A stretch of DNA of 64,000 nt, from the NCBI RefSeq assembly GCF_004785645.1, contig NZ_SRPE01000002.1, forward strand, positions 186,001-250,000, read 5' to 3'. A model generated the notes under the pieces. That model saw only the letters and a program-made list of their open reading frames with translations, did not search any database and was not told where the DNA came from. This document shows, piece by piece, positions 9,944-58,871 of the stretch (positions are counted from its first letter, which is position 1; each line of letters starts with the position of its first letter). This stretch comes from Empedobacter tilapiae. GTDB taxonomy: Bacteria; Bacteroidota; Bacteroidia; Flavobacteriales; Weeksellaceae. The position numbers were made by a program, and so were the translations under genes.

Positions 9944-10002
9944 TTGAATTTAGGCGAATTTAAAGCCTAAAGTTAGTTTTAATCTTATAAAAAATATATA
10001 AT

Positions 10003-11232
10003 TTGAGTTTTTCTTGGTGGTTTTCAAAAAAAATTGCGCTTGGTAAAAATACTAAAAATAACTTATCGAGTATTATTATTCGAGTAGGTCAAATTGCGGT
10101 AGCATTAGGGTTGATTGTTTCTTTGGTGACAATTTCTACTGGTGTTGGAGCAAGAAAGGCGATCAAAGAAAAGTTGGCCGATTTTAATGGTCATATTACG
10201 ATTAGAAACTACAATAGTAATACGTCATTAAATTCTGATTCATTATCACTTCATCAAGCTTTTTATCCAAAGTTTAAATCGATTCCAGAAATAGAACATG
10301 TACAAGCAATTGCCAATAAAAGTGGTGTTATCCGAACGGATGAAAATTTTAGTGGGGTTGTGTTCAAAGGAGTTGGAACAGATTATGATTCGGTTCGTTT
10401 CGAGAAATTTATGGTAAAAGGACATTTTCCTCGAATCAATAAAGATTCGATAATGGATGAGGTTTTATTATCGAAAAAGATTGCGGATGAAATGAAATTG
10501 GATGTTGATAGTTCGTTTGTGATGTATTTTATTCAAGAAGATACAAAGCCTATTTATCGTCGATTTACCATTTCTGGATTATTCAAAACAGATATCAAAA
10601 ACTTTGACGATCAAATAATGTTTGGTGACATCAAGCATGTACAACGTCTTAATCGCTGGGATTCGAATACAGTTGGCGGTTTCGAATTATTTGTAAATGA
10701 TGTCGAAAATATTGATCCTGTTGCAAAGCGTGTGCAAGAAAATATTCCATACAATTTATATGCAGAATCTGCTACGGCTTCATTTGCTCAGATTAATGAT
10801 TGGATTTCAATTTTCGATAAAAATATTGTCATTATTCTTTTTATCATGCTTTTTGTTGTGGTGATTAATATGGTGATGGTTTTATTGATTTTAATTTTAG
10901 AACGAACACATTCAATCGGAATTTTAAAAGCATTTGGTGCAACAAATTGGCGAATTCGAAAATTATTCATCAATTACGCATTATTTATTATGTTGCCAGG
11001 ATTAATTGCTGGAAATGCAATTGGACTTGGATTATTATTGATTCAGAAATATTTCGGAATTATCAAACTTCCGGCAGAAAACTATTATTTATCAACAGCT
11101 CCAGTCTATTTAGATTTTGGTACAATTGTTTTATTGAATGCAGGAGCGTTATTAGTTTGTGCAATTGTATTACTTTTGCCATCGTATATGATATCTAAAA
11201 TTACACCTGCAAAAGCGATTAATTTTAGATAA
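10003..11232 (+). CDS. FtsX/LolE-type ABC transporter permease
   Basis: A 409-residue inner-membrane protein with the LolC/E-MacB layout: transmembrane helix 1 near residues 28-48, a periplasmic domain of about 220 residues, and three C-terminal helices (about 272-300, 322-350 and 367-395). The last part carries the FtsX motif ILERTHSIGILKAFGA, which couples to the ATPase. Such permeases extract lipoproteins or other envelope substrates. The start is TTG: no in-frame ATG exists before the upstream stop, and the encoded MSFSWWFSKKIA beginning is typical. No ATPase gene adjoins it; lptB two genes on belongs to another system. Divergent from the NamZ-like gene with a 59-base gap. Confidence 0.88.
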   Translation: MSFSWWFSKKIALGKNTKNNLSSIIIRVGQIAVALGLIVSLVTISTGVGARKAIKEKLADFNGHITIRNYNSNTSLNSDSLSLHQAFYPKFKSIPEIEHVQAIANKSGVIRTDENFSGVVFKGVGTDYDSVRFEKFMVKGHFPRINKDSIMDEVLLSKKIADEMKLDVDSSFVMYFIQEDTKPIYRRFTISGLFKTDIKNFDDQIMFGDIKHVQRLNRWDSNTVGGFELFVNDVENIDPVAKRVQENIPYNLYAESATASFAQINDWISIFDKNIVIILFIMLFVVVINMVMVLLILILERTHSIGILKAFGATNWRIRKLFINYALFIMLPGLIAGNAIGLGLLLIQKYFGIIKLPAENYYLSTAPVYLDFGTIVLLNAGALLVCAIVLLLPSYMISKITPAKAINFR

Positions 11233-11265
11233 AATTTAATGTTTTAATTTAAAAGTTAGAAAAAA

Positions 11266-12627
11266 ATGAAATACGCAAACAATATATTAGAAACGATAGG
11301 GAATACACCTTTGGTTAAAATTAATAAGATTACAAAGGATTTACCATGTACGGTTTTAGCAAAAGTTGAATATTTTAACCCTGGTCATTCTTGTAAAGAT
11401 CGTATGGCGTTGAAAATGGTTGAGGATGCCGAAAAAGATGGTCGTTTAGTTCCTGGAGGAACAATTATCGAAGGTACTTCTGGTAACACAGGAATGGGGC
11501 TGGCTTTGGCTGCTGTGATCAAAGGTTACAAATTAATTTGTGTGATTACAGACAAACAATCGAAAGAGAAAATGGATATTTTGCGTGCTGTTGGTGCAAA
11601 AGTTGTGGTTTGTCCTACGGATGTTGAACCAGATGATCCACGTTCTTATTATTCAGTTTCTAAACGTTTGGCTCAAGAAACACATAATGGTTGGTATGTA
11701 AATCAGTACGATAATCCATCGAATGCGCAAGCGAATTATGAGCAAACTGGACCAGAAATTTGGGAGCAAACAGAAGGGAAAGTAACGCATTTTATTGTTG
11801 GAGTTGGAACTGGAGGAACAATTTCAGGTGTTGGAAAATACTTGAAAGAAAAAAATCCTAACATTAAAATTTGGGGAGTTGATACGTATGGATCAGTTTT
11901 CAAAAAATATAAAGAAACTGGAATCTTCGACGAAAATGAAGTGTATTCTTATGTAACAGAAGGAATTGGTGAAGATATTTTACCAGAAAATGTAGATTTT
12001 GATATCATTGATGGATTTACAAAAGTGACTGATAAAGATGCAGCGGTTTATACGCGTCGTTTAGCTTTAGAAGAAGGTTTGTTTGTTGGAATGTCTTCGG
12101 GATCTGCAATCAAAGGATTGTTGCAAATGAAAGACGAATTCGGACCAGACGATGTTGTGGTAGTTTTATTCCACGATTCAGGTTCTCGTTATGTTGGAAA
12201 AATCTTTAATGATGATTGGATGCGTGATAGAGGATATTTGGACGAAGAAATCAAAACGGCTGTAGATTTAATAAAAGAACATGTCGATAAACCTTTGGTA
12301 ACGGTTCGTACAGAGGAATTGGCTTCTCATGCAATTGATCGTATGCGTCGTTTCAAAATTTCTCAAATTCCAGTAATGGACGTGAATGGAATTGTTGGTT
12401 CTTTGGAAGAATCAGATTTGTTTCAAGCATTTTTAGAAGATAGAAATGTAGCAGAAAAACCTGTTCACGAAATTATGGGAAAACCTTATCCAGTAGTAAA
12501 AGCAGGAACATCTATTGAAGAAGTTTCGAAGTTAATTACAAAAGATAATCAAGCTGTTTTAATAGAATTAGAAAACGGAAAATATCATATCATCACAAAA
12601 TATGATATTATTAGCTCGATTAAATAA
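11266..12627 (+). CDS. Cystathionine beta-synthase-type PLP enzyme with C-terminal CBS pair
   Basis: A 453-residue enzyme of the cysteine synthase/cystathionine beta-synthase family. PLP would bind Lys44 in HSCKDRMALK, the phosphate loop is EGTSGNTG at 69-76, and a second glycine loop is VGTGGTISG. Residues 340-453 form two CBS motifs (VRTEELASHAIDRM and IMGKPYPVVKAGTSIEE), an adenosyl-ligand regulatory module found in cystathionine beta-synthase but not in simple CysK. The reaction is condensation of serine or an activated serine with homocysteine or sulfide; which one cannot be settled from sequence. It lies 33 bases after the permease and 24 bases before lptB. Confidence 0.92.
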   Translation: MKYANNILETIGNTPLVKINKITKDLPCTVLAKVEYFNPGHSCKDRMALKMVEDAEKDGRLVPGGTIIEGTSGNTGMGLALAAVIKGYKLICVITDKQSKEKMDILRAVGAKVVVCPTDVEPDDPRSYYSVSKRLAQETHNGWYVNQYDNPSNAQANYEQTGPEIWEQTEGKVTHFIVGVGTGGTISGVGKYLKEKNPNIKIWGVDTYGSVFKKYKETGIFDENEVYSYVTEGIGEDILPENVDFDIIDGFTKVTDKDAAVYTRRLALEEGLFVGMSSGSAIKGLLQMKDEFGPDDVVVVLFHDSGSRYVGKIFNDDWMRDRGYLDEEIKTAVDLIKEHVDKPLVTVRTEELASHAIDRMRRFKISQIPVMDVNGIVGSLEESDLFQAFLEDRNVAEKPVHEIMGKPYPVVKAGTSIEEVSKLITKDNQAVLIELENGKYHIITKYDIISSIK

Positions 12628-33913: not shown

Positions 33914-33987
33914 GCCGATGTAGCTCAGCTGGCTAGAGCAGCTGATTTGTAATCAGCAGGTCGTGGGTTCGAGTCCCTCCATCGGCT
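33914..33987 (+). tRNA. tRNA-Thr (anticodon TGT), copy 1
   Basis: Acceptor GCCGATG pairs with CATCGGC, discriminator T. Anticodon stem GCTGA/TCAGC encloses the loop TTTGTAA, giving anticodon TGT. TGGTTCGAGTC-type T arm is present (GGGTTCGAGTCCC). CCA is not encoded. Confidence 0.97.
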
Positions 33988-34004
33988 CAGTAAAAATATA
34001 GGTT

Positions 34005-34086
34005 GGGGAGATACTCAAGCGGCCAACGAGGACGGACTGTAAATCCGTTGGTTTCACCTTCGCAGGTTCGAATCCTGCTCTCCCCA
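34005..34086 (+). tRNA. tRNA-Tyr (anticodon GTA), copy 1
   Basis: Class II tRNA of 82 bases with long variable arm. Acceptor GGGGAGA/TCTCCCC, discriminator A; anticodon loop CTGTAAA gives GTA. T arm GCAGGTTCGAATCCTGC is intact. Confidence 0.97.
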
Positions 34087-34092
34087 CAAATT

Positions 34093-34166
34093 GCCGATGT
34101 AGCTCAGCTGGCTAGAGCAGCTGATTTGTAATCAGCAGGTCGTGGGTTCGAGTCCCTCTATCGGCT
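34093..34166 (+). tRNA. tRNA-Thr (anticodon TGT), copy 2
   Basis: Same as copy 1 except for one base in the acceptor (TATCGGC, giving a G-U pair). It follows tRNA-Tyr by six bases. Confidence 0.97.
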
Positions 34167-34210
34167 CTTAAAAAGTTTATATTTTACTTTTAAAACAAAA
34201 ATAAAAAATC

Positions 34211-34284
34211 GCCGATGTAGCTCAGCTGGCTAGAGCAGCTGATTTGTAATCAGCAGGTCGTGGGTTCGAGTCCCTCTATCGGCT
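34211..34284 (+). tRNA. tRNA-Thr (anticodon TGT), copy 3
   Basis: Identical to copy 2 over its whole length, including the acceptor G-U pair. Spacer of 44 bases from copy 2. Confidence 0.97.
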
Positions 34285-34316
34285 CTTCTTTTTTGAAGAA
34301 TACTTTATTATTAGGC

Positions 34317-34398
34317 GGGGAGATACTCAAGCGGCCAACGAGGACGGACTGTAAATCCGTTGGTTTCACCTTCGCAGGTTCGAATCCTGCTCTCCCCA
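34317..34398 (+). tRNA. tRNA-Tyr (anticodon GTA), copy 2
   Basis: Identical to tRNA-Tyr copy 1. Together with the preceding Thr gene it looks like a second Thr-Tyr unit made by duplication. Confidence 0.97.
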
Positions 34399-45582: not shown

Positions 45583-46995
45583 TTAAAATTCTTCAATATT
45601 AAAAGTTAAAATTATCTTTGTACCTTTCTGTAATTGACTTCCAATAGTCATGCTAATATTAGACATTTTAGCTAATTGAGTAGCTATATTTAAACCTAAT
45701 CCAGAACCAGAAATATGTAAAGTTGAATTATTTTTTACACGAAAAAAACGTTCTTGTACAAACCTCAAATCCTCTTTATTCATTCCAATACCATTATCTT
45801 CAAAAATCAATTCATAAATATTATTTTTAATGTTTGAATAAATATTTATTTCGCCTTTTAGATTGGAATATTTAATAGCATTTGATAAAATATTATCAAT
45901 GATAATTTCAAAAAATTCTTGATAATTATCTATTTTAACATTTTGAAGCTGATCTGTTTTAACCAAAACTTGTTTTTCTTGTAATAAAACATCAAAGCGT
46001 TCAATTGATTTTAAAACTTCGGATTTTAGCTCAAATAAAGAAGTTTTTAACTCTAAACTATTATTTTCAACACGAGAAAGTAATAAAAATTGCTCAACCA
46101 AACGGTCTAAACGATTAACTTGTTTCAAAGTATAATCAATTTTTTCATTGTATTGTTCAGGAGTTCGTTCTCGCCGAATCAAAATCTCTAACGTTCCTTT
46201 TATAATTGCTAAAGGTGTACGAAGTTCATGTGAAGCGTCAGCCGAAAACTGTTTAGCTTTTATAATTTGAAATTCTAATCGATCTAAAAGTGAATTTATT
46301 GTCGCTGAAAGTTGAAATAATTCATCTTTATTTTTTGGTAATTGAATGCGTTCTGAAAGATTATTTTCTGTTATAGATTGTGCTGTATGAATAACATTGA
46401 AAACAGGTTTAATTGATTTAGCAGCGATAAAACGAGCCAAAAGAAAAGTCAATAAAACTGAAATCGGAAAAATAATTAACAATGTTGTTTTAAGGTAATC
46501 TAATGCTAACTGATTATGTTTTGTAGAAACTCCAACAACTAAATATCCAACAATTTCTCCATGATGAATTAACTTTGCTTGAGAAACTAATAACTGAATT
46601 GAATTGTATTCTGCATAAAAAGGTATCTTTTCAGGCTCTTGTTTATTCCAATCCAATTGATTTTGAACCAAATTTGGAGAACTTTCAACTAAATTATAAT
46701 TTTTGTCATAAATCGATATAAAAACAGGATTTAAGGCAATATCTGTATGCTCTACTTCTTCCCATTCTCGTGGTTGAACAAAACTTTCTAAAGTAGGTTC
46801 ATGTAAGATATAATCTAAATGACTATTTATCTCTTCTTCTAAAGTTTCGTACATTGTTTTGTTAATACCTTGATTAACTGAGAAATATATCAAATAAAAG
46901 ATAATTAGTAGAATAACCGAAAAGGATATACTATAAAAAAGTGCAATTCTATTTTTTACAGATAAATTTTTAAACATCTTTCGAAATATAGCCAA
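45583..46995 (-). CDS. Sensor histidine kinase
   Basis: A 470-residue transmembrane kinase. TM1 at 16-40, a periplasmic sensor of about 125 residues, TM2 at 168-190, then HAMP. The phosphoacceptor is His256 in ASHELRTP; N box IIDNILSNAIKYSN, G1 FEDNGIGM and G2 GSGLGLNIA complete the ATP site. It resembles metal/envelope-stress sensors such as CusS in layout, but the signal is unknown. Its start overlaps the end of the regulator gene by 26 bases, so the two are a coupled pair. Confidence 0.93.
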   Translation of the reverse strand: MAIFRKMFKNLSVKNRIALFYSISFSVILLIIFYLIYFSVNQGINKTMYETLEEEINSHLDYILHEPTLESFVQPREWEEVEHTDIALNPVFISIYDKNYNLVESSPNLVQNQLDWNKQEPEKIPFYAEYNSIQLLVSQAKLIHHGEIVGYLVVGVSTKHNQLALDYLKTTLLIIFPISVLLTFLLARFIAAKSIKPVFNVIHTAQSITENNLSERIQLPKNKDELFQLSATINSLLDRLEFQIIKAKQFSADASHELRTPLAIIKGTLEILIRRERTPEQYNEKIDYTLKQVNRLDRLVEQFLLLSRVENNSLELKTSLFELKSEVLKSIERFDVLLQEKQVLVKTDQLQNVKIDNYQEFFEIIIDNILSNAIKYSNLKGEINIYSNIKNNIYELIFEDNGIGMNKEDLRFVQERFFRVKNNSTLHISGSGLGLNIATQLAKMSNISMTIGSQLQKGTKIILTFNIEEF

Positions 46996-47653
46996 CTCCG
47001 CGTATTGTATGTAAACGAGAATCTTCTTTTTTTAGATTTAATTTTTTACGAATAGCATTAATAAAAACATCAATTACACTTGTATCGTATTCAAAATGAA
47101 TGTCCCAAATATTTTCGATGATTTCTTTGCGTGTACAAATTCGATTTTTATTTTTAAAAAGATAAACAAGAAGCTGAAATTCTTTCAAAGTTAATTCAAC
47201 TAAATTGTCATCTAAAAAAGTTTGATGTGTTTCTGTATTTAATGAAATATTTCCGAAATTTAAGATGTTATTCAATTTATTTTGACGAAGATAAACATTA
47301 ATTCGTGCTACTAATTCGTTGAAGTCGAATGGTTTTTTGATGTAATCATTTGCACCTGCATTCAAACCTTCAATTGTATCTTGAACTGTATCTTTCGCTG
47401 TGATGAAAATAATTGGCGTTTTTTTATTAGGATTTTCGGTAGATCGAGTTGTTTGACAAACTTCTAATCCAGAAATGTTTAACATCATCCAATCCAATAA
47501 AATAATATCAAATTTTTCGTTGTTTATTTTCAATAAAGCATCCTCGCCACTTAAACTATGAGTTGGTGATAGATTTTCTTCTTCTAAGCCTTGAAGCATA
47601 AAATTAGCAATTCCCAATTCATCTTCAACAATTAAAACTTTTGGTTTGTTCAT
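46970..47653 (-). CDS. OmpR-family response regulator
   Basis: A 227-residue regulator. Receiver domain with the acidic pair Glu10-Asp11, phosphoacceptor Asp54 in ILLDWMM, Thr85 in FITAKD and Lys107. The C-terminal winged helix (residues 130-227) has the family ending IDVFINAIRKKLN and IRGVGYI. Regulators of this type bind direct repeats about 10-11 bases apart. Such repeats are present upstream of the operon at 50560, so autoregulation is plausible. Just upstream lies the lipid kinase gene, four bases away. Confidence 0.94.
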   Translation of the reverse strand: MNKPKVLIVEDELGIANFMLQGLEEENLSPTHSLSGEDALLKINNEKFDIILLDWMMLNISGLEVCQTTRSTENPNKKTPIIFITAKDTVQDTIEGLNAGANDYIKKPFDFNELVARINVYLRQNKLNNILNFGNISLNTETHQTFLDDNLVELTLKEFQLLVYLFKNKNRICTRKEIIENIWDIHFEYDTSVIDVFINAIRKKLNLKKEDSRLHTIRGVGYISKDV

Positions 47654-47656
47654 TTT

Positions 47657-48544
47657 CTAATTCGGAACAATAACATTTAAAGCATTCGGAACAATCGAAA
47701 CTTCAATAGAATTTTGATTAAAAATAACGGCTTCACCATCAACTTGAGCAATTGTTTTAGGTTGGTTGGAATTGAACTTCACTGAATTTACTTGTAATAC
47801 TTTCGCATCATTCATTTTTTCAATTTGTTTTCCTAAAACACAAGCCGAAAACTGAATTTGTTTTATAAAATTAAGCTTTTTTACCGCAAGAAAGTCTAAT
47901 TTTCCATCATTTAATTTTGCATTAGGGGAAAAAGAAATTCCATAACCCGCTTCGTTAGAGTTGGAGCAGAATACAAAATAGAAATCATCATCTAATATAT
48001 GTTCATTGTCTAATTCGATGCTAAATTTTTTCGGTTGAAAGTTGAAAATTGCTTTTGTACTGGCAGATACATATCCCAAAAAGTTTCTGGTTTTGGTTTG
48101 CGCATAATTGTTAATCACATCTGCATCAATTCCTAATCCCATGTTGCTAAAAAAGTATTTTTCGTTGATTTTTCCTGCGTCAATTTTATTGATTTTTGCA
48201 TTCAGAATCATTTCAAAAGCTTTTTCGGTAGATTTAGGGATATGCAAATTAGCCGCTAATCCATTTCCAGAGCCAATCGGAATAATTCCTAAAGCAACAT
48301 TACTACAAACCAAAGCTTGAGCGACTTCGTTTATTGTTCCGTCGCCGCCACAAGCTACTATTATTTCAGGATTTTTTGTGAGAACTTGATTTGCAATTTC
48401 AGTTGCATGACCAATACTTTTAGTCAAAAATGTTTCGAATTCAACATTTTTTTGACTAAAATAATGTTGAATTTCAGTTTCAATCACTCGTCCTTTTCCT
48501 TTTCCAGCAATAGGATTGATGATAAAAATGATTTTATTTTTCAT
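47657..48544 (-). CDS. Lipid kinase, diacylglycerol kinase family (YegS/DgkB-like)
   Basis: A 295-residue ATP-dependent lipid kinase. The catalytic GGDGT lies at 66-70 in ACGGDGTINEVAQAL, the second motif GSGNGLA at 91-97, and FFSNMGLGIDADVI follows, all typical. In Gram-positive bacteria DgkB phosphorylates diacylglycerol left by lipoteichoic-acid synthesis. Here it directly follows an LTA-synthase-like gene with an 11-base overlap, so the same recycling role is an attractive inference, not proven. Confidence 0.9.
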   Translation of the reverse strand: MKNKIIFIINPIAGKGKGRVIETEIQHYFSQKNVEFETFLTKSIGHATEIANQVLTKNPEIIVACGGDGTINEVAQALVCSNVALGIIPIGSGNGLAANLHIPKSTEKAFEMILNAKINKIDAGKINEKYFFSNMGLGIDADVINNYAQTKTRNFLGYVSASTKAIFNFQPKKFSIELDNEHILDDDFYFVFCSNSNEAGYGISFSPNAKLNDGKLDFLAVKKLNFIKQIQFSACVLGKQIEKMNDAKVLQVNSVKFNSNQPKTIAQVDGEAVIFNQNSIEVSIVPNALNVIVPN

Positions 48545-50498
48545 TTAATAAATGATTGCTAAATAAATAATCGGCTGTTTGATAATTAGATATGATAGAA
48601 CGTTCGAAAATAGGATCGACCTTTGTGTCAATTAAATTTTTATTAATCCATTTGTATTGATTGATTTTCTTTTGATCGGATAAAATCGAAACATCTTCGC
48701 CTTTTTTCATTCCCAATTTAATGTATGTGCCAACAAAAGAGCGCGATTTGTATTGCGGATCGAAAATATCTTTTCCATAAAATTGAGATGTATATTTCCA
48801 ATTGAACAACGAAAATAACGTAGGAAAAATATCAATTTGAGAAACTTCTTTTGTGACATTTTCGTTGGCGTGCGATTTCAAATTATAAATAAATGCAGGA
48901 ATATGATGATTCTTAACATCAATCGCATCTTTACCTGCGCTACTTGCACAGTGATCAGCAATAAACACAAAAACGGTATTACTGAACCAAGGTTTTGTTT
49001 TCGCTTTTGCAATTAAATCTCCAATCGCATAATCGGCATATTTTACTGCACCAGGACGACCAGTTCCAGACGGAATATCAATTTTTCCATCTTCGTATGT
49101 ATAAGGTTTGTGGTTAGAAGTTGACATTACAAAAGCAAAAAATGGTTGTTTTGTTTTGTATTTTTCGTCAGCAACTTTGATTACTTTTCTGTAAATATCA
49201 TCGTCTGCAATTCCCCAAGCATTTTCAAAAGTAACTTCATTATCATTAATATTGAAACGATTGGTGTTGATTTTATCACTTAAAACGCTACCACGACCGC
49301 GATCGTAAATATCAAAACCATTTCCACCATAAAAAGCATTCATGTTGTCAAAATAACCATCACCACCATAAAAGAACATATTGTGATAACCTTTTGCTTT
49401 GAAAACATTTGAAATAGTATACAAATTTTGATTATCAACACGTTTTACAATACTGTTTCCAGGCGTTGGAGGAATTGATAATGTAACAGCTTCCATTCCA
49501 CGTACAGTACGGGTTCCGTTGGCATACATATTCGAAAAATAGATGCTGTTATTTGCAATATCATTCAGGTTTGGAGTGATTGATTTTCCGTTGAATTGCT
49601 CTTGCAAAAATGAAGCGCTCATACTTTCCATTAACACAAAAATCACGTTTGGTTTTTGTTCTGCTTGTGAAGGATTACTCGCTAAAATTGTTCTTCGTAT
49701 TGGATTTTTGAATTGTTGATCGAAAACAGTTTTCGAATCTTGCAATTCAGATTTCATTACAGCAAAAGCATCTTCAATCGGAATAGATTTATAATGTTCG
49801 TCGTATTTTAAATGATTATTTCGGAAAGCTGAAAAGAAAGAAAAGATTCCTGCTTTTGAAATTTCATTGTTGTATCGGTTCTCTGATGTTGAACTGCTAT
49901 CGTTGTTTAAAAGGAATAATGAGCCAATCGCAAGTAATAAATTGAACACAAAAACGCCAACTTTTTGACTTGTTTTTGGTTTGTTATGAAATGTGTTGTA
50001 AAAGAAGTAACCTTTTTTTGTTGCGAAAATTGTCAAGCCTATAATCAGCACAATTCCACCAATTAAAATGGGTAATGGATATGATTCTTGAATATTTTTG
50101 ACAACTTCGTATGTGTAAATCAAATAATCGACCGCAATAAAATTGAATCGACTTTTGAATTCGTCCCAAAATGTAACTTCCGCAAAAAATGTAAAATAAA
50201 TGATTACCAAATACAATGTATAAACGAAATACACGAAAATTCGATCAAATAATGAATTGACGAATTTGTTTGGTAAAATCATAAAATAAAATGACAAGAA
50301 TAACGTGAAGCAGCTTACAACACTAATGTCGTAAACTAATCCATAAAAAATAGAGTGGAATAACGAGCCAATATTCCAATCGAAATCACCCTTTACCCAA
50401 ACCGCAAAAATTAAGCGTAGAATAAATGAAATTAGAATAAATAACGAGCTGAAAAATAGTAAAATACTGTAACGTCCTTTTAAATTATTTGTAAACAT
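48534..50498 (-). CDS. LTA synthase-like phosphoglycerol/phosphoethanolamine transferase
   Basis: A 654-residue inner-membrane protein of the alkaline-phosphatase superfamily. Five helices occupy residues 10-200; the extracytoplasmic catalytic domain from about 280 has VIFVLMESMSASF (metal-binding Glu291), the nucleophile-type threonine in ANGTRTVRGME (329/331), and the later FYGGDGYFDN, FAFVMSTSNHKPYT and FIADHCASS, where the His/Asp ligands lie. Enzymes of this family move phosphoglycerol from phosphatidylglycerol to glycolipids or glucans. The acceptor in this Gram-negative organism is unknown. Confidence 0.9.
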   Translation of the reverse strand: MFTNNLKGRYSILLFFSSLFILISFILRLIFAVWVKGDFDWNIGSLFHSIFYGLVYDISVVSCFTLFLSFYFMILPNKFVNSLFDRIFVYFVYTLYLVIIYFTFFAEVTFWDEFKSRFNFIAVDYLIYTYEVVKNIQESYPLPILIGGIVLIIGLTIFATKKGYFFYNTFHNKPKTSQKVGVFVFNLLLAIGSLFLLNNDSSSTSENRYNNEISKAGIFSFFSAFRNNHLKYDEHYKSIPIEDAFAVMKSELQDSKTVFDQQFKNPIRRTILASNPSQAEQKPNVIFVLMESMSASFLQEQFNGKSITPNLNDIANNSIYFSNMYANGTRTVRGMEAVTLSIPPTPGNSIVKRVDNQNLYTISNVFKAKGYHNMFFYGGDGYFDNMNAFYGGNGFDIYDRGRGSVLSDKINTNRFNINDNEVTFENAWGIADDDIYRKVIKVADEKYKTKQPFFAFVMSTSNHKPYTYEDGKIDIPSGTGRPGAVKYADYAIGDLIAKAKTKPWFSNTVFVFIADHCASSAGKDAIDVKNHHIPAFIYNLKSHANENVTKEVSQIDIFPTLFSLFNWKYTSQFYGKDIFDPQYKSRSFVGTYIKLGMKKGEDVSILSDQKKINQYKWINKNLIDTKVDPIFERSIISNYQTADYLFSNHLLNEK

Positions 50499-50550
50499 TT
50501 TGTTTTTGAATTATTGTTCAAATGTCTTGATATTTAATAGATTATTAACA

Positions 50551-50581
50551 TGTTAAAGTGAATCTTAAGCGAATCTTAAGT
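50551..50581 (-). promoter_or_regulatory. 11-bp direct repeats, candidate regulator site of the LTA-synthase-like operon
   Basis: GAATCTTAAGC (50560-50570) is followed directly by GAATCTTAAGT (50571-50581). A weaker third unit GTTAAAGT lies beside them at 50552. Read on the operon's strand this is CTTAAGATTCG, CTTAAGATTCA, then CTTTAACA. The 11-base phase and position about 60 bases upstream of the LTA-synthase-like start suit the OmpR-type regulator encoded in that operon. Confidence 0.58.
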
Positions 50582-50690
50582 TTGCGAATTTTGAATGAAA
50601 GATAGAAGCTGAAAACGTTAATAATTCGTGAAAAAATGGTTTTGATTAGAAATAGTTGTAAATTTGTAATTGGTTTATAAAGTAGGTATA

Positions 50691-50984: not shown

Positions 50985-51076
50985 GTTGTAAAATTTGACA
51001 TTTAATTGATAATCATGCTTAAATTTTAAGAAAAATATTTAACCAAAAAATTAAATAAAATATTGTTGATTTAGAT

Positions 51077-51107
51077 TTGATTTTACTAATTAAAATGTTT
51101 AATTTTG
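51077..51107 (+). promoter_or_regulatory. purL promoter
   Basis: TTG at 51077-51079, 20-base spacer, TAATTTTG at 51100-51107, a perfect flavobacterial promoter. Predicted start is near 51114, about 35 bases before the riboswitch aptamer. Confidence 0.82.
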
Positions 51108-51148
51108 CAGTTCACTTTTAAAGGTGATTTAGTTTTTAAAGTTTACAA

Positions 51149-51226
51149 CATTTGTATAGCTCATAATAAGGTTGAGCGTCTCTACGGCAGACCATAAAAA
51201 ATTGCCACTACAAATGAATTTTTTTT
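51149..51226 (+). promoter_or_regulatory. Purine (guanine-class) riboswitch upstream of purL
   Basis: P1 is CATTTGTA (51149-51156) with TACAAATG (51209-51216). P2 is GCTCA/TGAGC with loop containing AATAAGG; J2/3 is GTCTCTAC (51178-51185), the family TNTCTAC element; P3 is GGCA/TGCC-like with loop CCATAAA, and its CC can pair with GG of the P2 loop as in known aptamers. The J3/1 base that decides specificity (position 74 equivalent) is C at 51208, so guanine or hypoxanthine is expected. A run of eight T starts two bases after P1, so P1 closure itself could be the terminator. Confidence 0.85.
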
Positions 51227-51233
51227 CTACAAA

Positions 51234-51338
51234 ATGAGTCTTGAACCACTCTTGTTAGAAAATAGTTTGTTTGTTGATGTAGATGATACAAATGGTTTAA
51301 ACACATTAAACCAAATAGTACAGCAAACAATACAATGA
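51234..51338 (+). CDS. Leader ORF of purL, 34 codons
   Basis: ATG at 51234 opens a frame MSLEPLLLENSLFVDVDDT then NGLNTLNQIVQQTIQ and a TGA that overlaps the purL start as ATGA. It lies just after the riboswitch U tract. The four-base overlap and reading frame suggest a translated leader peptide coupled to purL; whether the peptide has its own role is unknown. It could also be chance. Confidence 0.5.
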   Translation: MSLEPLLLENSLFVDVDDTNGLNTLNQIVQQTIQ

Positions 51339-54300
51339 ACCACAGACTTTTCATTCAGAAGAAATCGAATTTTGACGTTATCAGTCAGAAGACTACAATA
51401 GAACTCAAAAACCTTGTACCTACAATTGTGTGCAAGGTTTTTGTTATTTATGATCTATTTAATATAGAAGAAAGCCAATTACAAGAGGTTCAAAATAAGG
51501 TGTTTGTCGATCCTGTGACAGACGTTGTTTTCAAATACGTAGAAGACGCAGTTAACGAAAGCATTCCTTATTCTAAAAACTATTTTGCAACCGAATTTTT
51601 ACCTGGTCAATATAATCAACGCGATGATTCTTCGGAACAATGTTTAGTGTTGATGAATGTTGAAAATGTAACCGTAAAATCTGGTTTATTATATGTTTTC
51701 AATGATGATTTGTCTGCGGAAGATTTAAAGAAAGTAAAAGATTACTTAATCAATCCAATTGAGTCGCGCGAGAAAGTTCTTTCTAAAATGGAAATTCCAG
51801 CAAATCCAGAAGCTACAGAAGTTCCAATTATTGAAGGTTTTATTTCTGCTGACGAAAATAAACTACAAGACATTTACAACCAATTTGGATTATCATTAGA
51901 AATGGATGATTTAGTTTTTATTCAAGACTATTTCAAATCAATTAATCGTAATCCAACAGAAACTGAGTTAAAAGTTTTAGATACTTATTGGTCTGATCAC
52001 TGTCGTCATACAACTTTTGAGACAGAGATTACAGATGTTCAATTTAATTCTAAATTTAACGAAACACTTCAAAAAACATTCGATTATTACCAACAAGTTC
52101 GTCAAGAATTAGGAACAACTAAACCAATTCGTTTGATGGATTTAGCAACTGTGATGGGGAAATATCTTTCTCGCACAGGAGTTGTAAAAAATATTGATGT
52201 TTCAGAAGAAATCAATGCTTGTTCTATTGTCGTTCCAATCGATGTAGATGGTGTTGAGGAAGAATGGTTATTACAATTCAAAAACGAAACACATAATCAC
52301 CCAACAGAAGTTGAGCCATTTGGTGGAGCTTCGACATGTGTTGGTGGAGCAATTCGCGACCCTTTGAGTGGACGTTCTTACGTTTTTCAAGCGATGCGTA
52401 TTACAGGAGCTGCAAATCCTTTAGAAAAAATTGAAGATACGTTACCTGGTAAGTTACCACAGCGTAAAATCTCTAAAGAAGCAGCAAACGGATACAGTTC
52501 ATATGGAAATCAAATTGGTTTAGCGACAACTTTTGTGAAAGAAATTTACGACGAAGGGTACAAAGCAAAACGCATGGAAGTTGGTTTTGTGGCTGGAGCT
52601 GTAAAAAAAGAATATGTTCGTCGTGAAGAACCAGTTGCAGGTGACCGAATTATTTTATTAGGAGGAGCAACAGGTCGTGATGGAGTAGGAGGAGCTTCAG
52701 GTTCGTCTAAAACACACGATGGTTTAAAATTAGACGATTTATCAGCAGAAGTTCAAAAAGGAAATGCAATTGTTGAACGTAAAATTCAACGATTATTCCG
52801 TAATCCAGACGTTTTAACATTAATCAAAAAATGTAACGACTTTGGTGCGGGAGGTGTTTCTGTTGCAATTGGAGAAATTGCACGTGGAATTAATGTTGAT
52901 TTAGATTTAGTTCCATTGAAATATGCTGGATTAAACGGAACAGAATTAGCGATTTCTGAATCTCAGGAACGTATGGCTGTTGCAGTTGAGGCAAAAGATG
53001 TGGAAACATTTATTGCATTAGCAAAAGAAGAAAACCTTGAAGCAACTTGTGTTGCTGAGGTAACGGGAGATGATACAATGACTTTGGTATGGAAAGGAAC
53101 AAAGATTGTTGAATTAGACCGTAAATTTTTAGATACAAACGGCGTTCGTAAACAAGCTAAAATCGAAGTTACGGAGGAAGAATATAAAAATCCTTTTGAG
53201 AATAAAGCTTTCAATAAAGAAGCGTTTATTGCAATGATGCAAGAGTTAAATCATGCGTCACAAAAAGGTATGGTAGAAATGTTTGACAACAACGTTGGTC
53301 GTTCTACTATTTTGAATGCTTTTGGTGGACAAACGATGGATACGCCAGAAGATGTTTCAGTACAAAAATTCCCAACAGATGGGTTTACTAATGCGGTTTC
53401 AATTGCTTCATTTGGTTACAATCCTACAATTTCGCGTTGGTCAAATTATCACGGAGCTTATTTCGCGGTAATTGATTCGATGACAAAAATTGTTGCTGCT
53501 GGTGGAAATTACGCTGATATTCGTTTAACTTTTCAAGAATATTTTGAAAAATTACGTGATGAAGCAACGCGTTGGGGAAAACCATTTGCAGCTTTATTAG
53601 GAACGATTGAAGCTCAAAAACAATTCGGAATTCCTGCAATTGGAGGTAAAGATTCGATGTCTGGTTCTTACCAAGATATTGATGTTCCGCCAACGTTGAT
53701 TTCTTTTGCAGTTGCGCCTTCTAAGGCTGAAAAAATTGTACAAGGAACTTTAGTAGGAAAGAATTCTAAACTTTCAGTTTTTATTCCAAAATTGACTGAA
53801 GACTATTTAATCGACGAAACAAATACAAAAGCTATTTTTGATTTTATCGGAACAATTAATGATGATGTAAAATCAATGATGACGGTTAAATTTGGTGGAA
53901 TTGCAGAAACTGTAGCGAATATGGCTTTTGGTAATGAAATCGGATTTGAAATCAACACTGATTTAGATTTAGGAAAATATTATCCAGCTTCGATAGTGAT
54001 TGAACATTCAGAAGAATTAAATATTCCTGCTGAAATTGCTCAAAATTATCATGTTTTAGGTCAGACAAATGATTCAACTTCATTTAAATTTAATGGAGAA
54101 GAAATTAATTTGAACGAATTAAAACAACAATGGAAAGAAACATTCAATTCATTGTTTCCATATAAATCAACCTCTGAAACAGTCGTTGAAGAAAAAGATT
54201 TGAAAGCTGAACAAATTTGTTTTGCCTTCGCAGATCATAAAGTAGAAAACCCGAAAGTTTTTATTCCAATTTTCCCAGGAACAAATTCAGAATATGATTC

Positions 54301-55042
54301 AGCAAAAGCGTTCCGTAGGGAAGGAGCAATCGTTTCGACTTTGCCTTTCCGTAATTTAACACAACAAGATGTTGAAGAATCGGTAGATGCTTTTGTAAAT
54401 GAAATCAATCAAGCCAATATTTTCTTTGTACCAGGAGGTTTCTCAGCTGCTGATGAGCCAGATGGGTCAGGTAAATTTATTGCAACGGTTTTACGTAATG
54501 AGAAAATCAAAAATGCAATTCATAATTTATTAGAACGTGATGGATTGGTTTTAGGAATCTGTAATGGTTTCCAAGCCTTGATTAAATCAGGATTATTACC
54601 TTATGGACGTATCCAAGATTTGGAAGAAGATACACCAACATTAACGTTCAACGAAATAGGTCGTCATATTACGCAATTAGCAAAAATTCGTGTAAATAAA
54701 TCGCATTCACCTTGGTTGAAAGGAATGGAAGGACAAGAATTCTGGATTCCGTTTTCACATGGAGAAGGTCGTTTCGTAGCAAATGAGGTTGAATTAGAAA
54801 AGTTAATTGATAAAGGACAAATTGCAACTCAGTTTGTAGATTTGGACGGAAAATTAGCAGGGAAAATGCCTTATAATCCAAATGGATCTACGTTTGCGGT
54901 AGAAGGAATTGTATCGCCTTGTGGAAAAATTTATGGACGAATGGGACATCCGGAGCGTTACGAAGAAGGATTATTCAAGAACATTCCAGGAAATGGATAT
55001 ATGAATATCTTCAAAAATGCGGTAGAATATTTTAGAGGGTAA
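51335..55042 (+). CDS. purL: Phosphoribosylformylglycinamidine synthase, large single-chain form
   Basis: A 1235-residue enzyme for step 4 of de novo purine synthesis, turning FGAR, glutamine and ATP into FGAM. N-terminal FGAR-AT domain, linker (DDLVFIQDYFKSINRNPTETEL), two AIR-synthetase-like halves with DHCRHTTFETEI, KNETHNHPTEVEPFGGASTCVGG and the second FGGIAETVANMAFG, and a C-terminal glutaminase domain with the nucleophile Cys1076 in GICNGFQALIKSG and His/Glu in HGEGRF and GHPERYEEG. It is the single-chain form of Proteobacteria and Bacteroidota. Expression is probably set by the riboswitch before it. Confidence 0.97.
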   Translation: MNHRLFIQKKSNFDVISQKTTIELKNLVPTIVCKVFVIYDLFNIEESQLQEVQNKVFVDPVTDVVFKYVEDAVNESIPYSKNYFATEFLPGQYNQRDDSSEQCLVLMNVENVTVKSGLLYVFNDDLSAEDLKKVKDYLINPIESREKVLSKMEIPANPEATEVPIIEGFISADENKLQDIYNQFGLSLEMDDLVFIQDYFKSINRNPTETELKVLDTYWSDHCRHTTFETEITDVQFNSKFNETLQKTFDYYQQVRQELGTTKPIRLMDLATVMGKYLSRTGVVKNIDVSEEINACSIVVPIDVDGVEEEWLLQFKNETHNHPTEVEPFGGASTCVGGAIRDPLSGRSYVFQAMRITGAANPLEKIEDTLPGKLPQRKISKEAANGYSSYGNQIGLATTFVKEIYDEGYKAKRMEVGFVAGAVKKEYVRREEPVAGDRIILLGGATGRDGVGGASGSSKTHDGLKLDDLSAEVQKGNAIVERKIQRLFRNPDVLTLIKKCNDFGAGGVSVAIGEIARGINVDLDLVPLKYAGLNGTELAISESQERMAVAVEAKDVETFIALAKEENLEATCVAEVTGDDTMTLVWKGTKIVELDRKFLDTNGVRKQAKIEVTEEEYKNPFENKAFNKEAFIAMMQELNHASQKGMVEMFDNNVGRSTILNAFGGQTMDTPEDVSVQKFPTDGFTNAVSIASFGYNPTISRWSNYHGAYFAVIDSMTKIVAAGGNYADIRLTFQEYFEKLRDEATRWGKPFAALLGTIEAQKQFGIPAIGGKDSMSGSYQDIDVPPTLISFAVAPSKAEKIVQGTLVGKNSKLSVFIPKLTEDYLIDETNTKAIFDFIGTINDDVKSMMTVKFGGIAETVANMAFGNEIGFEINTDLDLGKYYPASIVIEHSEELNIPAEIAQNYHVLGQTNDSTSFKFNGEEINLNELKQQWKETFNSLFPYKSTSETVVEEKDLKAEQICFAFADHKVENPKVFIPIFPGTNSEYDSAKAFRREGAIVSTLPFRNLTQQDVEESVDAFVNEINQANIFFVPGGFSAADEPDGSGKFIATVLRNEKIKNAIHNLLERDGLVLGICNGFQALIKSGLLPYGRIQDLEEDTPTLTFNEIGRHITQLAKIRVNKSHSPWLKGMEGQEFWIPFSHGEGRFVANEVELEKLIDKGQIATQFVDLDGKLAGKMPYNPNGSTFAVEGIVSPCGKIYGRMGHPERYEEGLFKNIPGNGYMNIFKNAVEYFRG

Positions 55043-55584: not shown

Positions 55585-56307
55585 ATGAGCTTAACAAAAA
55601 AAGACTTCATTTACGAAGGAAAAGCAAAACAAGTTTACTCAACAGAGGAAGCAGACAAAGTAATTGTGTATTACAAAGATGACGCGACTGCATTTAATGC
55701 ACAAAAGCGTGGAACTGTTGAGGACAAAGGAGAAATGAACAACAAAATTTCGACTTTAATTTTCAACTATTTGATTGAAAAAGGAGTTAAAACTCATTTC
55801 ATCGAGCAGTTGAATGATCGTGAGCAATTGGTAAAAAAAGTATCAATTATTCCAATTGAAATGGTTGTGCGCAACTATGTTGCTGGGTCTATGGCTCAAC
55901 GTTTAGGATTAGAGGAAGGAGCGAAATCTCCAGTTACAATCTTCGATATCTGTTACAAAAAAGATGAATTAGGAGATCCATTAATCAACGATCATCACGC
56001 AGTTTTATTAGGTGCTGCAACGTATGATGAGTTGGATGAAATGTATGCTCAGACGGAAGTAATTAACGAAGCGTTGAAAGAATTGTTCTTAAAAGCTGGA
56101 TTAATTTTAGCTGATTTCAAAATTGAGTTTGGTAAAGATGTTGATGGTAATATCATTTTAGCTGACGAAATTTCTCCAGATACATGTCGTTTATGGGATG
56201 TTGAAACAGGTAAGAAATTAGATAAAGACCGTTTCCGTCGTGATTTAGGTGATGTTTCAGAAGCTTATCACGAAGTATATAATCGTTTGACAGAAGTTTT
56301 AAAATAA
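55585..56307 (+). CDS. purC: SAICAR synthetase
   Basis: A 240-residue enzyme joining aspartate to CAIR (step 7 of purine synthesis). Start [31 protein letters not shown], then the family motif [55 protein letters not shown] and [10 protein letters not shown]. Length normal. It precedes purF by 19 bases and follows purL after a 540-base repeat-rich gap, so it may have its own promoter. Confidence 0.96.
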
Positions 56308-56326
56308 ACATTTTTTTCATTCTATA

Positions 56327-57832
56327 ATGATTGATAAAAAATTACATAAAAGCCAATTCAAAGCTGAATATTTAACGAATTTCTACGAAAGAAATTTATT
56401 AAAAAAATATGCAGCTGATACTGTGGATAGTGTAAACGAAGAATGTGGTGTTTTTGGGGTTTATTCGCCAAATAATATCAACACGTATTCTATTGCGCAG
56501 TTTGGTTTATTTGCGCTTCAACACCGTGGACAGGAAGCGTGTGGTGTTTCTTTCTTGAAAGATGGAAACATTAAAACGGTGAAAAAAACAGGTTTGGTAT
56601 TGGACGTTTTCAAAACAATGGAAGCCGAAATTGAAGAATACCAAGGAAATGCTGCGATTGGACATACACGCTACACAACTGCTGGAGGTGGAAGTCGTCG
56701 TAACATTCAGCCACTTTACACGTACAATATTTACGGAAAACCTCATTTCTCTATTGCACATAACGGAAATTTAATTGAAGTTGAAGCATTGAGAGCTGAA
56801 TTAGAAGCAGAAGGTTTACCATTTTTAGCAACTTCGGATACGGAGGTTTTATTACGTTCTATTCAAAAATATTCGCATTTAGATATTGTAGAAGCTATTC
56901 AGAAAGGTACAGAAAAGGTAAAAGGCGCTTATTCGGTTTTGTTATTAGCGAATAATCAAATGGCAGCTTTTCGCGATCCAAATGGTATTCGTCCTTTATG
57001 TTTAGGTAAATTGGACGATGCCTATGTTTTCTGTTCAGAAACATGTGCATTAGACGCTGTCGGAGCTGAATTTATCCGCGATGTAGAGCCAGGTGAATTG
57101 ATTGTAGTAAATAAACAAGGTTTAAAATCTTATTCATTAAATCAACCAACGCAACGTAATATTTGTGCTTTTGAGTACATTTATTTTGCACGTCCTGATT
57201 CGAATATAGAAGGAAATGAAATCTACGATTTACGTGTAGAATCTGGTCGAAAATTATACGAACAATCTCCTGTTGATGCCGATATTGTAATTGGTGTTCC
57301 AGATTCTGGAATTCCATCTGCAATTGGTTATTCAGAAGCTTCGGGTATTCCTTATGAACCAATTTTAATTAAGAATCGTTATATGTCGCGTTCGTTTATC
57401 GTGCCTTCTCAAGAAATGCGTGAGCGTGTGGTAAACTTAAAATTGAATCCTATCAAAAATAAAATCAAAGGAAAACGTTTGGTTGTTTTAGATGATTCTA
57501 TTGTACGTGGAACAACTTCGAAATTATTAATCAAAATATTAAAAGAAGCAGGAGCAAAAGAAATTCATTTCCGTTCTGCTTCGCCTCCTATTATTGCACC
57601 TTGTTATTTAGGAATTGATATGCCTTCTAAAGCAGATTTAATTTCAGGAAATAAGTCAATTAAAGAGGTTGAAGATTATTTGAATGTTGATTCGTTAGAT
57701 TTCTTAACAGTTGATAATCTGATTGATTTATTAGGAAGTAAAGAACATTGTTTTGGATGTTTTACAGAAAAATATCCCGTAAATTATTCTAATGAAGAGT
57801 GTAAAGAGGTAAAACCTTTGCATATAGATTAA
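56327..57832 (+). CDS. purF: Amidophosphoribosyltransferase
   Basis: A 501-residue enzyme for the first committed step: PRPP plus glutamine to phosphoribosylamine. The catalytic cysteine is Cys40 in NEECGVFGVYSP, so a 39-residue propeptide must be removed. Glutaminase motifs follow (ALQHRGQEACGV, GHTRYTTAG, AHNGNL). The PRPP loop is VVLDDSIVRGTTSK. Cysteines in ICAFEYIYF, APCYLG and HCFGCF match the 4Fe-4S ligands of the B. subtilis enzyme, so this is the cluster-bearing, oxygen-sensitive type. It sits between purC and purM. Confidence 0.96.
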   Translation: MIDKKLHKSQFKAEYLTNFYERNLLKKYAADTVDSVNEECGVFGVYSPNNINTYSIAQFGLFALQHRGQEACGVSFLKDGNIKTVKKTGLVLDVFKTMEAEIEEYQGNAAIGHTRYTTAGGGSRRNIQPLYTYNIYGKPHFSIAHNGNLIEVEALRAELEAEGLPFLATSDTEVLLRSIQKYSHLDIVEAIQKGTEKVKGAYSVLLLANNQMAAFRDPNGIRPLCLGKLDDAYVFCSETCALDAVGAEFIRDVEPGELIVVNKQGLKSYSLNQPTQRNICAFEYIYFARPDSNIEGNEIYDLRVESGRKLYEQSPVDADIVIGVPDSGIPSAIGYSEASGIPYEPILIKNRYMSRSFIVPSQEMRERVVNLKLNPIKNKIKGKRLVVLDDSIVRGTTSKLLIKILKEAGAKEIHFRSASPPIIAPCYLGIDMPSKADLISGNKSIKEVEDYLNVDSLDFLTVDNLIDLLGSKEHCFGCFTEKYPVNYSNEECKEVKPLHID

Positions 57833-57878
57833 TAAGTTATACGAATTTCGTATTTCGAAAAACTAAATCATAATTAAA

Positions 57879-58871
57879 ATGAGCAATACATATAAACAAG
57901 CCGGAGTAGATAAGGAAGAAGGTTATCAAACGGTATCGAAAATTAAAGATGCAGTTGCAGCAACACACAATTCAAACGTGTTGAATGGAATTGGAAGTTT
58001 TGGTGCATTTTACCAATTAGGAGGTTACAAAAATCCTGTTTTGGTATCTGGAACTGATGGTGTAGGAACTAAACTACGTGTGGCTTTAGATTCTAAAGTT
58101 TACGATACAGTTGGGATTGATTGTTTCGCGATGTGTGCAAATGATATTTTGTGTCATGGTGCAAAACCATTATTTTTCTTAGATTATTTAGCTTGTGGAA
58201 AATTAGATTCTGATATTGCAGCAGAAATTGTAGGTGGAATTGCACAAGCGTGTAAAGAAACTGGAACAGCATTAATTGGTGGAGAAACAGCAGAAATGCC
58301 AGGAATGTATCAAGTTGGTGATTATGATGTTGCAGGATTTTGTGTTGGAGTAGTAGAGCGTGATGAAATTATCGATGGTTCTAAAATAAAAGCTGGACAA
58401 GTAATTATTGCGTTACCATCAAGTGGTTTCCATTCGAATGGATTCTCTTTGGTTCGTAAAGTTTTTCCAGATTTTAACGAAGAATTTGAAGGTAAACCTT
58501 TGTTCGAAACTTTATTAGTTCCAACAAAATTATATCAAAACGATATTTTCAAAATCAAAGATGCTGGAATTGAAATGTCTGGAATTGCTCATATTACAGG
58601 AGGTGGATTAATCGAGAATGTTCCTCGTATTATAAATGACGGTTTGACGGCTGTAATAGAAAAAGCAAAAATAAATGTACCAACAGTGATGCAAGAATTA
58701 GCGAAACACGGAGGAATTGCAGAAAACGAAATGTTTGGAACATTTAATATGGGTGTCGGAATGGTTGTCATCGTTGACCAAACTGACGCTGAAAAAGTAT
58801 TGAATATTATTGATGGAAGCGCGTTGATTGGAGAAATTCAAGAGGGTGCTGACAAAATTATATTGAAATAG
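57879..58871 (+). CDS. purM: AIR synthetase
   Basis: A 330-residue phosphoribosylaminoimidazole synthetase, ring closure of FGAM to AIR (step 5). Motifs: LVSGTDGVGTKLRVALDSKVYDTVGIDC, CANDILCHGAKPLFFLDYLACGKL, ALIGGETAEMPGMY and HITGGGLIENVPRI. It lies 47 bases after purF and ends in a terminator, so purC-purF-purM looks like one transcript. Confidence 0.96.
   Translation: MSNTYKQAGVDKEEGYQTVSKIKDAVAATHNSNVLNGIGSFGAFYQLGGYKNPVLVSGTDGVGTKLRVALDSKVYDTVGIDCFAMCANDILCHGAKPLFFLDYLACGKLDSDIAAEIVGGIAQACKETGTALIGGETAEMPGMYQVGDYDVAGFCVGVVERDEIIDGSKIKAGQVIIALPSSGFHSNGFSLVRKVFPDFNEEFEGKPLFETLLVPTKLYQNDIFKIKDAGIEMSGIAHITGGGLIENVPRIINDGLTAVIEKAKINVPTVMQELAKHGGIAENEMFGTFNMGVGMVVIVDQTDAEKVLNIIDGSALIGEIQEGADKIILK

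Follow-up and report, generated by a model that had tools for sequence, protein, structure and literature searches.

A guanine-class purine aptamer before purL in Empedobacter tilapiae and a proposed strand exchange towards the purL start codon

The purL leader and its surroundings

We analysed a 64,000-nucleotide stretch of Empedobacter tilapiae contig NZ_SRPE01000002.1 (the window), in which purL is preceded by a purine aptamer and followed by purC, purF and purM. The features of the locus are listed below, with the evidence for each in brackets.

51076..51107, + strand: promoter-like TTTG-N20-TANNTTTG (exact consensus match)
51112..51127, + strand: hairpin where the purL leader is expected to begin (fold)
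51131..51148, + strand: invariant 18-nt block AGTTTTTAAAGTTTACAA (identical in 14/14 genus members)
51149..51156 with 51209..51216, + strand: helix P1, 8 pairs (fold, alignment)
51149..51156, + strand: 5' strand of P1 (strand a), CATTTGTA (RF00167 match, alignment, covariation)
51159..51177, + strand: P2 and loop 2 (AATAAGG) (RF00167 match, alignment, covariation)
51178..51185, + strand: J2/3, GTCTCTAC, with U47 at 51179, C48 at 51180 and U51 at 51183 (sequence, RF00167 match, alignment)
51186..51206, + strand: P3 and loop 3 (CCATAAA...) (RF00167 match, alignment, covariation)
51208, + strand: specificity base C74, guanine class (sequence, RF00167 match)
51209..51230, + strand: strand b, made up of the 3' strand of P1, TACAAATG (51209-51216), AA, eight T (51219-51226) and CTAC (T-run count, folds, covariation)
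51236..51251, + strand: inner hairpin of the b.c stem (GAGT...ACTC) (folds)
51254..51276, + strand: strand c, GTTAGAAAATAGTTTGTTTGTTG, pairing with b or d (folds, shuffles, covariation)
51294..51312, + strand: hairpin GGTTTAA-ACACA-TTAAACC inside the c.d stem (fold)
51321..51328, + strand: strand d, CAGCAAAC, pairing with GTTTGTTG of c (fold, covariation, openness)
51335..55042, + strand: purL, single-chain FGAM synthase (TIGR01857; 1681.6 bits, cut-off 1057.05)
55585..58871, + strand: purC, purF and purM, downstream of purL (gene calls, family match)

The promoter-like element follows TTTG-N20-TANNTTTG, which we take to be the promoter consensus. Such matches number five in the window, where chance alone would give 6.5. 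Within the window's genus, 13 of the 14 members retain TANNTTTGC (L026 has TAATTTCGC), with diverging flanks, and the transcript would start near 51110-51114. The hairpin at the expected 5' end (51112-51127) has changed letters in L014 and L015 that, judged by eye, can still pair; possibly it stabilises the mRNA. From AGTTTTTAAAG through the aptamer, the sequence is nearly invariant in 14 genomes while the flanks diverge. The last bases of the 18-nt block, TACAA (51144-51148), can pair with TTGTA at the 5' side of P1. This hairpin occurs in the minimum folds of L014, L025, L027, L028 and L029 when the RNA ends at the T-run, and in those of L029, L036 and L038 for a longer RNA (shortened in L036 and L038, where the purL start was not found); it is absent from the minimum fold of the window. 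The block may serve to hold the ligand-free state.

A gap of 542 bases separates the end of purL from purC. A consensus scan (loop limit 8, blind to P1 plus a U-run) gave no terminator-like site on the + strand between 50981 and 56832, so that read-through from purL into purC-purF-purM is possible. An upstream open reading frame at 51234-51338 (34 aa, overlapping the purL ATG) was rejected as a leader peptide because it had no family match and its ATG is kept in only 6/14 genus members (L001, L014, L016, L017, L021 and L023). Upstream of purL, on the opposite strand, lie genes for a histidine kinase, a response regulator, a diacylglycerol kinase and a sulfatase (45583-50498). Elsewhere in the window, a tandem array of five tRNAs in repeated near-identical copies occupies 33914-34398 (70.2, 66.7, 66.7 and twice 57.2 bits), and a TTTG/TANNTTTG promoter-like match ends at 33914, at this array.

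Identity and distribution of the aptamer

In a covariance-model search, 51132-51230 on the + strand matched the purine riboswitch family RF00167 with 52.1 bits, above the gathering score of 37; the E value was 5.9e-06 when the whole window was searched and 2.8e-08 in a search of 301 bases. This is the sole RF00167 match in the 3.71 Mb genome and likewise the sole genome match of our own aptamer model at E <= 0.001. A possible relic of a second aptamer upstream, at 50529-50598, was discarded, as its match reached only 12.5 bits (E 0.49).

P2 is formed by five standard pairs (51159-51163 with 51173-51177) and then a U-U apposition; P3 likewise has five standard pairs (51186-51190 with 51202-51206), followed by A-A. 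Loop 2 ends in GG (51170-51171) and loop 3 starts CCATAAA at 51192. The GG and the CC are invariant in 33/33 aligned aptamers, and a loop-loop contact is predicted. At the positions that set the ligand class, for which we assume the guanine-class pattern U22/U47/U51/C74, the window has T at 51157, 51179 and 51183 and C at 51208. Base 74 is C in 31/33 aligned aptamers and T in both rows from genus g2.

The alignment (A1) comprised 33 aptamers (27 distinct), namely one from each of 30 loci and three second copies in g33, with the two divergent g2 rows included. Of its cells, 91.5% pair, and both sides have changed in 16 of 20 pairs, which none of 500 shuffles equalled; structures slid along the same alignment pair only 35-50%. 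The fold of the single strand is unremarkable (z -1.40, with 20/200 shuffles as low). J1/2 of the window aptamer is two nucleotides long (TA) and its P2 is short. A J1/2 of two bases, not three, is found in 13/14 aptamers of the window's genus (g1), as well as in those copies of G317 and G319 that lie nearer to purL; by eye, it was not seen among 30 control aptamers, and a P2 of about six positions per side also occurs in some of these.

The element before purL is almost certainly a guanine-class purine aptamer, judged from its letters and their covariation. An earlier note on this DNA, made from the sequence alone, had named it a guanine-class purine riboswitch before purL in Bacteroidota, and the family score and covariation on which it had staked that claim bear it out. 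P1, P2, P3, J2/3, the loop letters, C at 51208 and the eight T at 51219-51226 are all present where the note placed them. It had also read the C at the position of U48 as a small departure; we rejected a functional departure here, as 7/30 controls carry GTCTCTAC and the base is ordinary.

The closest known relatives include the RF00167 guanine riboswitches of the B. subtilis xpt-pbuX and purE type, a kind of RNA switch known above all from Gram-positive bacteria. The window aptamer resembles these in its three-way junction, GG/CC loops, U22/U47/U51/C74, association with a purine synthesis gene and expected OFF logic. It differs in its occurrence in Bacteroidota, its short P2, its 2-nt J1/2 and a P1 that abuts a U-run. 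No separate terminator hairpin (a stem-loop and U-run distinct from the aptamer) was found between aptamer and gene, unlike in the B. subtilis type, and in the window the anti-P1 strand would lead on to one that covers the bases ahead of the start codon. Aptamers of this class also immediately precede a purL of the same type in Psychrilyobacter (L044) and Clostridium UBA3947 (L081); in Fusobacterium (L052), the aptamer lies at a greater distance upstream of purL. L044 and L052 share C48 with the window aptamer, but all three differ from it in having no P1-adjacent run of 6 T. The 2'-deoxyguanosine-II riboswitch of Bacteroidetes, as described in a passage of PMC8872408 that cites Weinberg 2017, belongs to the same fold family and phylum but has C51 (and C47) in J2/3, a pattern that we encountered in f38 alone, a different family (L031-L035). 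With C at 47 and 51, L031-L035 look like 2'-deoxyguanosine-II riboswitches; behind L032, the sole locus whose gene was tested, lies endonuclease I.

RF00167 was found in 30/320 Weeksellaceae genomes and 5/33 genera: all 14 genomes of g1, all three of g33 (the genus of Vaginella), 6/9 of g3, 2/3 of g2 and 5/6 of g24 (G296 has no match). A sample of the order gave 3/395 genomes, all Weeksellaceae, and a sample of the phylum 5/395, namely the window's genome and four of another family, in which the aptamers have C at positions 47 and 51; samples of more than 40 genomes were searched with stricter filters, under which weak matches can be missed. The aptamer stands directly before purL in 14/14 g1 genomes. 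The next gene is also purL in g24, in g3 and behind the purL-proximal g33 copies, and it is not purL in g2 (identity in relatives taken from the translated start of the next frame, with a PurL comparison for part of them). Our own model found aptamers at 10/80 loci around PurL relatives. The earlier note had called the occurrence before purL in Bacteroidota little described, in agreement with our search of the open-licence literature, in which no such guanine riboswitch was found; the Rfam member list may hold such genomes.

PurL itself (TIGR01857) was matched in 310/316 family genomes, 303 of them above the curated cut-off, so that the presence of purL does not follow that of the riboswitch, and we rejected a joint arrival of the two. 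Of the nine g3 genomes, six carry the riboswitch together with a purL match and the remaining three carry neither. The PurL tree was built by a quick method, with SH-aLRT only, a midpoint root and five rows less than half filled; on it, the label "riboswitch before purL" needs four changes, at least three by starred branches. Two PurL branches of the family carry the riboswitch, one with g1, g33 and g24 and the other with g3; it is absent from the branch of the other sampled genera. This may reflect one gain with loss, or two gains, within the family.

Several aptamers outside the window's genus are of separate interest. Vaginella carries two guanine aptamers in tandem before purL (L041, 2121-2190 and 2338-2407). 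In two sister genomes (L036, 1516-1587; L038, 1516-1587), the aptamer copies are about 4.4 and 5.2 kb apart and enclose a cassette of kinase, regulator, lipid kinase and sulfatase-like genes, named by likeness to those of the window; the orphan aptamer left behind runs into a convergent frame. The g2 aptamers (L039, 6394-6463, - strand; L040, 9092-9161, + strand) have the adenine-type base U at 74. The frame next to the L039 aptamer encodes an EamA transporter, making this a candidate adenine riboswitch in Bacteroidota; the L040 contig stops before a next gene can be read. The same locus has an open frame at 9782-12001 with MAKKILGLDLGTNSIGWA near its start, which by eye resembles the start of a Cas9-type nuclease.

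Predicted alternative pairings behind P1

A run of at least six T, 0-4 bases from the end of P1, is present in 20/20 aptamers of g1 and g33. Such a P1-adjacent run occurs in 0/13 aptamers of g24, g3 and g2, and in 0/30 controls from Firmicutes, Fusobacteria and Haloplasma (30 loci out of 40 matches, from 14/22 chosen genomes); the nearest case is L174, with seven T at offset 5. The orphan g33 copies L018 and L020 keep P1 and their T8 and T6 and have no significant downstream partner for b (102 and 187 of 200 shuffles as low). If the orphans are functional, this speaks for an independent role of the T-run. For the distal Vaginella copy L005, b has a possible downstream partner (2/200 shuffles as low).

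In the g1 leaders and the purL-proximal g33 leaders, b can form a long hairpin with c. When b was paired with the sequence that follows it, at most 4/200 letter shuffles reached the duplex energy in 13/14 g1 leaders (39/200 in L027) and at most 3/200 in 3/3 purL-proximal g33 leaders; these shuffles, and those used for c.d below, keep letters, not dinucleotides. Strand b pairs better with its own c (-12.51 kcal/mol) than with the c of other species (-8.91 kcal/mol), and 0/5000 permutations were as low (15 distinct pairs). In L025 and L027, an A interrupts the T-run and c carries the matching T. The distal and orphan copies L005, L018 and L020 were left out of this covariation analysis and of the state comparisons below, and the fold survey omitted the same copies and L038.

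Strand d ends 6 bases before the purL ATG, and its partner, GTTTGTTG, is the 3' end of c. The c.d pairing beats shuffled partners (0/300). Its preference for own over swapped partners is not significant (545/5000 as low), because both strands are nearly fixed. In L014, c.d is kept with different letters on both sides.

We compared the two states by imposing either the aptamer or b.c on each leader. Bases -20 to +3 of the purL start are less open with the aptamer in 17/17 leaders, the mean falling from 0.68 to 0.40. With aptamer loops and junctions held unpaired, b.c was lower in energy in 17/17 leaders (0.5-6.9 kcal/mol), a constraint that biases towards b.c by construction. When only P1 was imposed, b.c was lower in 12/17 leaders (mean 1.1, range -1.0 to 5.1 kcal/mol), and in the window leader the P1 state was lower by 0.4 kcal/mol. 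In free folding, P1 had a mean probability of 0.00-0.45 and was in the minimum fold of 9/17 leaders, including the window, whose free minimum fold is P1 with c.d. The comparison with fewer constraints weakens the energy argument and slightly lowered our odds for strand exchange and for the model as a whole. The two states are predicted to be close in energy, as a ligand-driven switch needs. Folding alone does not tell which state rules without ligand; that b.c comes first is an argument from the order of synthesis, since b.c is formed before d is made.

For an exchange acting on translation, the evidence consists of the coupled change in b.c and the lower openness in 17/17 leaders, set against a coevolution of c.d that is not significant and an energy balance of about zero in the window. 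On these predicted structures, we consider a strand exchange reaching the purL start codon somewhat more probable than its absence.

The sister genera add a second arrangement. Four of the five g24 leaders have the start codon of purL covered by the released strand, with predicted ATG openness falling from 0.39 to 0.03, 0.17 to 0.02, 0.41 to 0.02 and 0.21 to 0.01; the fifth leader (L013) goes the opposite way, from 0.08 to 0.14. Of the five g3 leaders with a found start, four have a less open start region and one is unchanged, and the ATG is more open in 3/5. In this survey, the L028 start was set wrongly and L004 yielded none; the g1 openness values come from the imposed-state comparison. This suggests one family with one aptamer and two platforms, P1 and U-run with b.c/c.d in g1 and g33, and start-codon cover without a U-run in g24. 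A passage of PMC6847099 describes Bacteroidetes members without SD sequences, in which initiation is tuned by mRNA structure, and a block of translation by pairing of the start region is therefore plausible.

Proposed mechanism and rival explanations

We propose that abundant guanine (or hypoxanthine) lowers purL expression. Without ligand, b (51209-51230) would pair with c (51254-51276), leaving the region before the purL start more open. Ligand would hold P1 closed and free c for pairing with d (51321-51328), a few bases ahead of the start codon, and this pairing would hinder ribosome entry in a phylum not reliant on Shine-Dalgarno sites. The T-run behind P1 may make RNA polymerase pause, so that guanine can bind while c has yet to be transcribed; alternatively, ligand-bound P1 and the T-run may form the stem and tail of a weak terminator. 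OFF logic is very probable for such a leader. The whole of this model, a guanine OFF switch by strand exchange on the translation start with the T-run as a pause or auxiliary terminator, is the reading that we regard as likely. In kind, b.c against P1 together with c.d would be strand exchange, one of the riboswitch groups, along with direct occlusion, of a 2024 review (PMC10907184).

The T-run either merely pairs with the A-rich part of c or acts on the polymerase. It cannot be the site of antitermination by b.c, because c is made only after the T-run. We give an action of the T-run on RNA polymerase an even chance. The earlier note had pictured a compact off-switch in which ligand-bound P1 is itself the terminator stem. 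The adjacency of T-run and P1 stands, as it holds throughout two genera and in none of the controls, but the platform may comprise more than the T-run. In its full form, that explanation has ligand-stabilised P1 and eight U ending transcription, with the rest of the leader passive. The distribution of the T-run, with 0/13 in g24, g3 and g2, fits it well, as do the orphans L018 and L020. It leaves b.c and its coupled change unexplained, however, and P1 is A/U-rich, with two G-C among its eight pairs. L005, a third distal copy, has a possible downstream partner, and the controls include near misses such as L174. In the passage of PMC10907184 on this point, a terminator directly stabilised by ligand is held to be possible in principle, with guanidine-IV as a possible case, but unlikely because too little time is left for binding. 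We regard termination at P1 as the sole mechanism as unlikely; on the modelled folds, strand exchange at the level of translation is at least as likely as termination at P1.

A different doubt concerns whether the downstream pairings do anything. The guanine aptamer might have survived while its platform decayed, with purL under promoter control and the pairings incidental. Such a decay would fit the window leader, which folds without constraints into P1 with c.d, and the lack of significant c.d covariation, but the near invariance of the stretch from AGTTTTTAAAG through the aptamer and the coupled change in b.c make it quite improbable. A further alternative is an aptamer that binds 2'-deoxyguanosine or adenine and regulates purL to match. 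Adenine switches carry U74, and the window has C at 51208. A J1/2 one base short near the pocket and the 2'-deoxyguanosine-II riboswitches reported from Bacteroidetes in PMC8872408 speak for another ligand, but the same passage gives C51 for the 2'-deoxyguanosine classes, and the window has T at 51183. Both U51 and C74 are thus present, the 2'-deoxyguanosine-II-like L031-L035 carry C47 and C51 (GCCTCCAC or close variants), and the gene behind the window aptamer belongs to purine synthesis, whereas L032 precedes endonuclease I. We consider either of these two ligands very improbable indeed.

Strand exchange at the start codon could also be combined with an effect at the T-run. In such a two-stage switch, ligand-closed P1 and the U-run would pause or terminate the polymerase, and polymerases that pass would be caught by the exchange at the start codon. 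In that exchange, the strand that carries this U-run would set whether the bases ahead of the start codon, in an mRNA with no Shine-Dalgarno site, are accessible. This remains a tentative and rather doubtful extension of the model. If true, it would be a natural ligand-stabilised intrinsic terminator, the case that PMC10907184, in the passage cited, calls unlikely.

The novelty of this locus lies in the platform, for which the mechanism is a computed proposal, and not in a new kind of aptamer. The results put guanine riboswitches before purL in one family of Bacteroidota, and the system may let one examine, on a small natural scale, whether an aptamer with bound ligand can act as an intrinsic terminator by itself.
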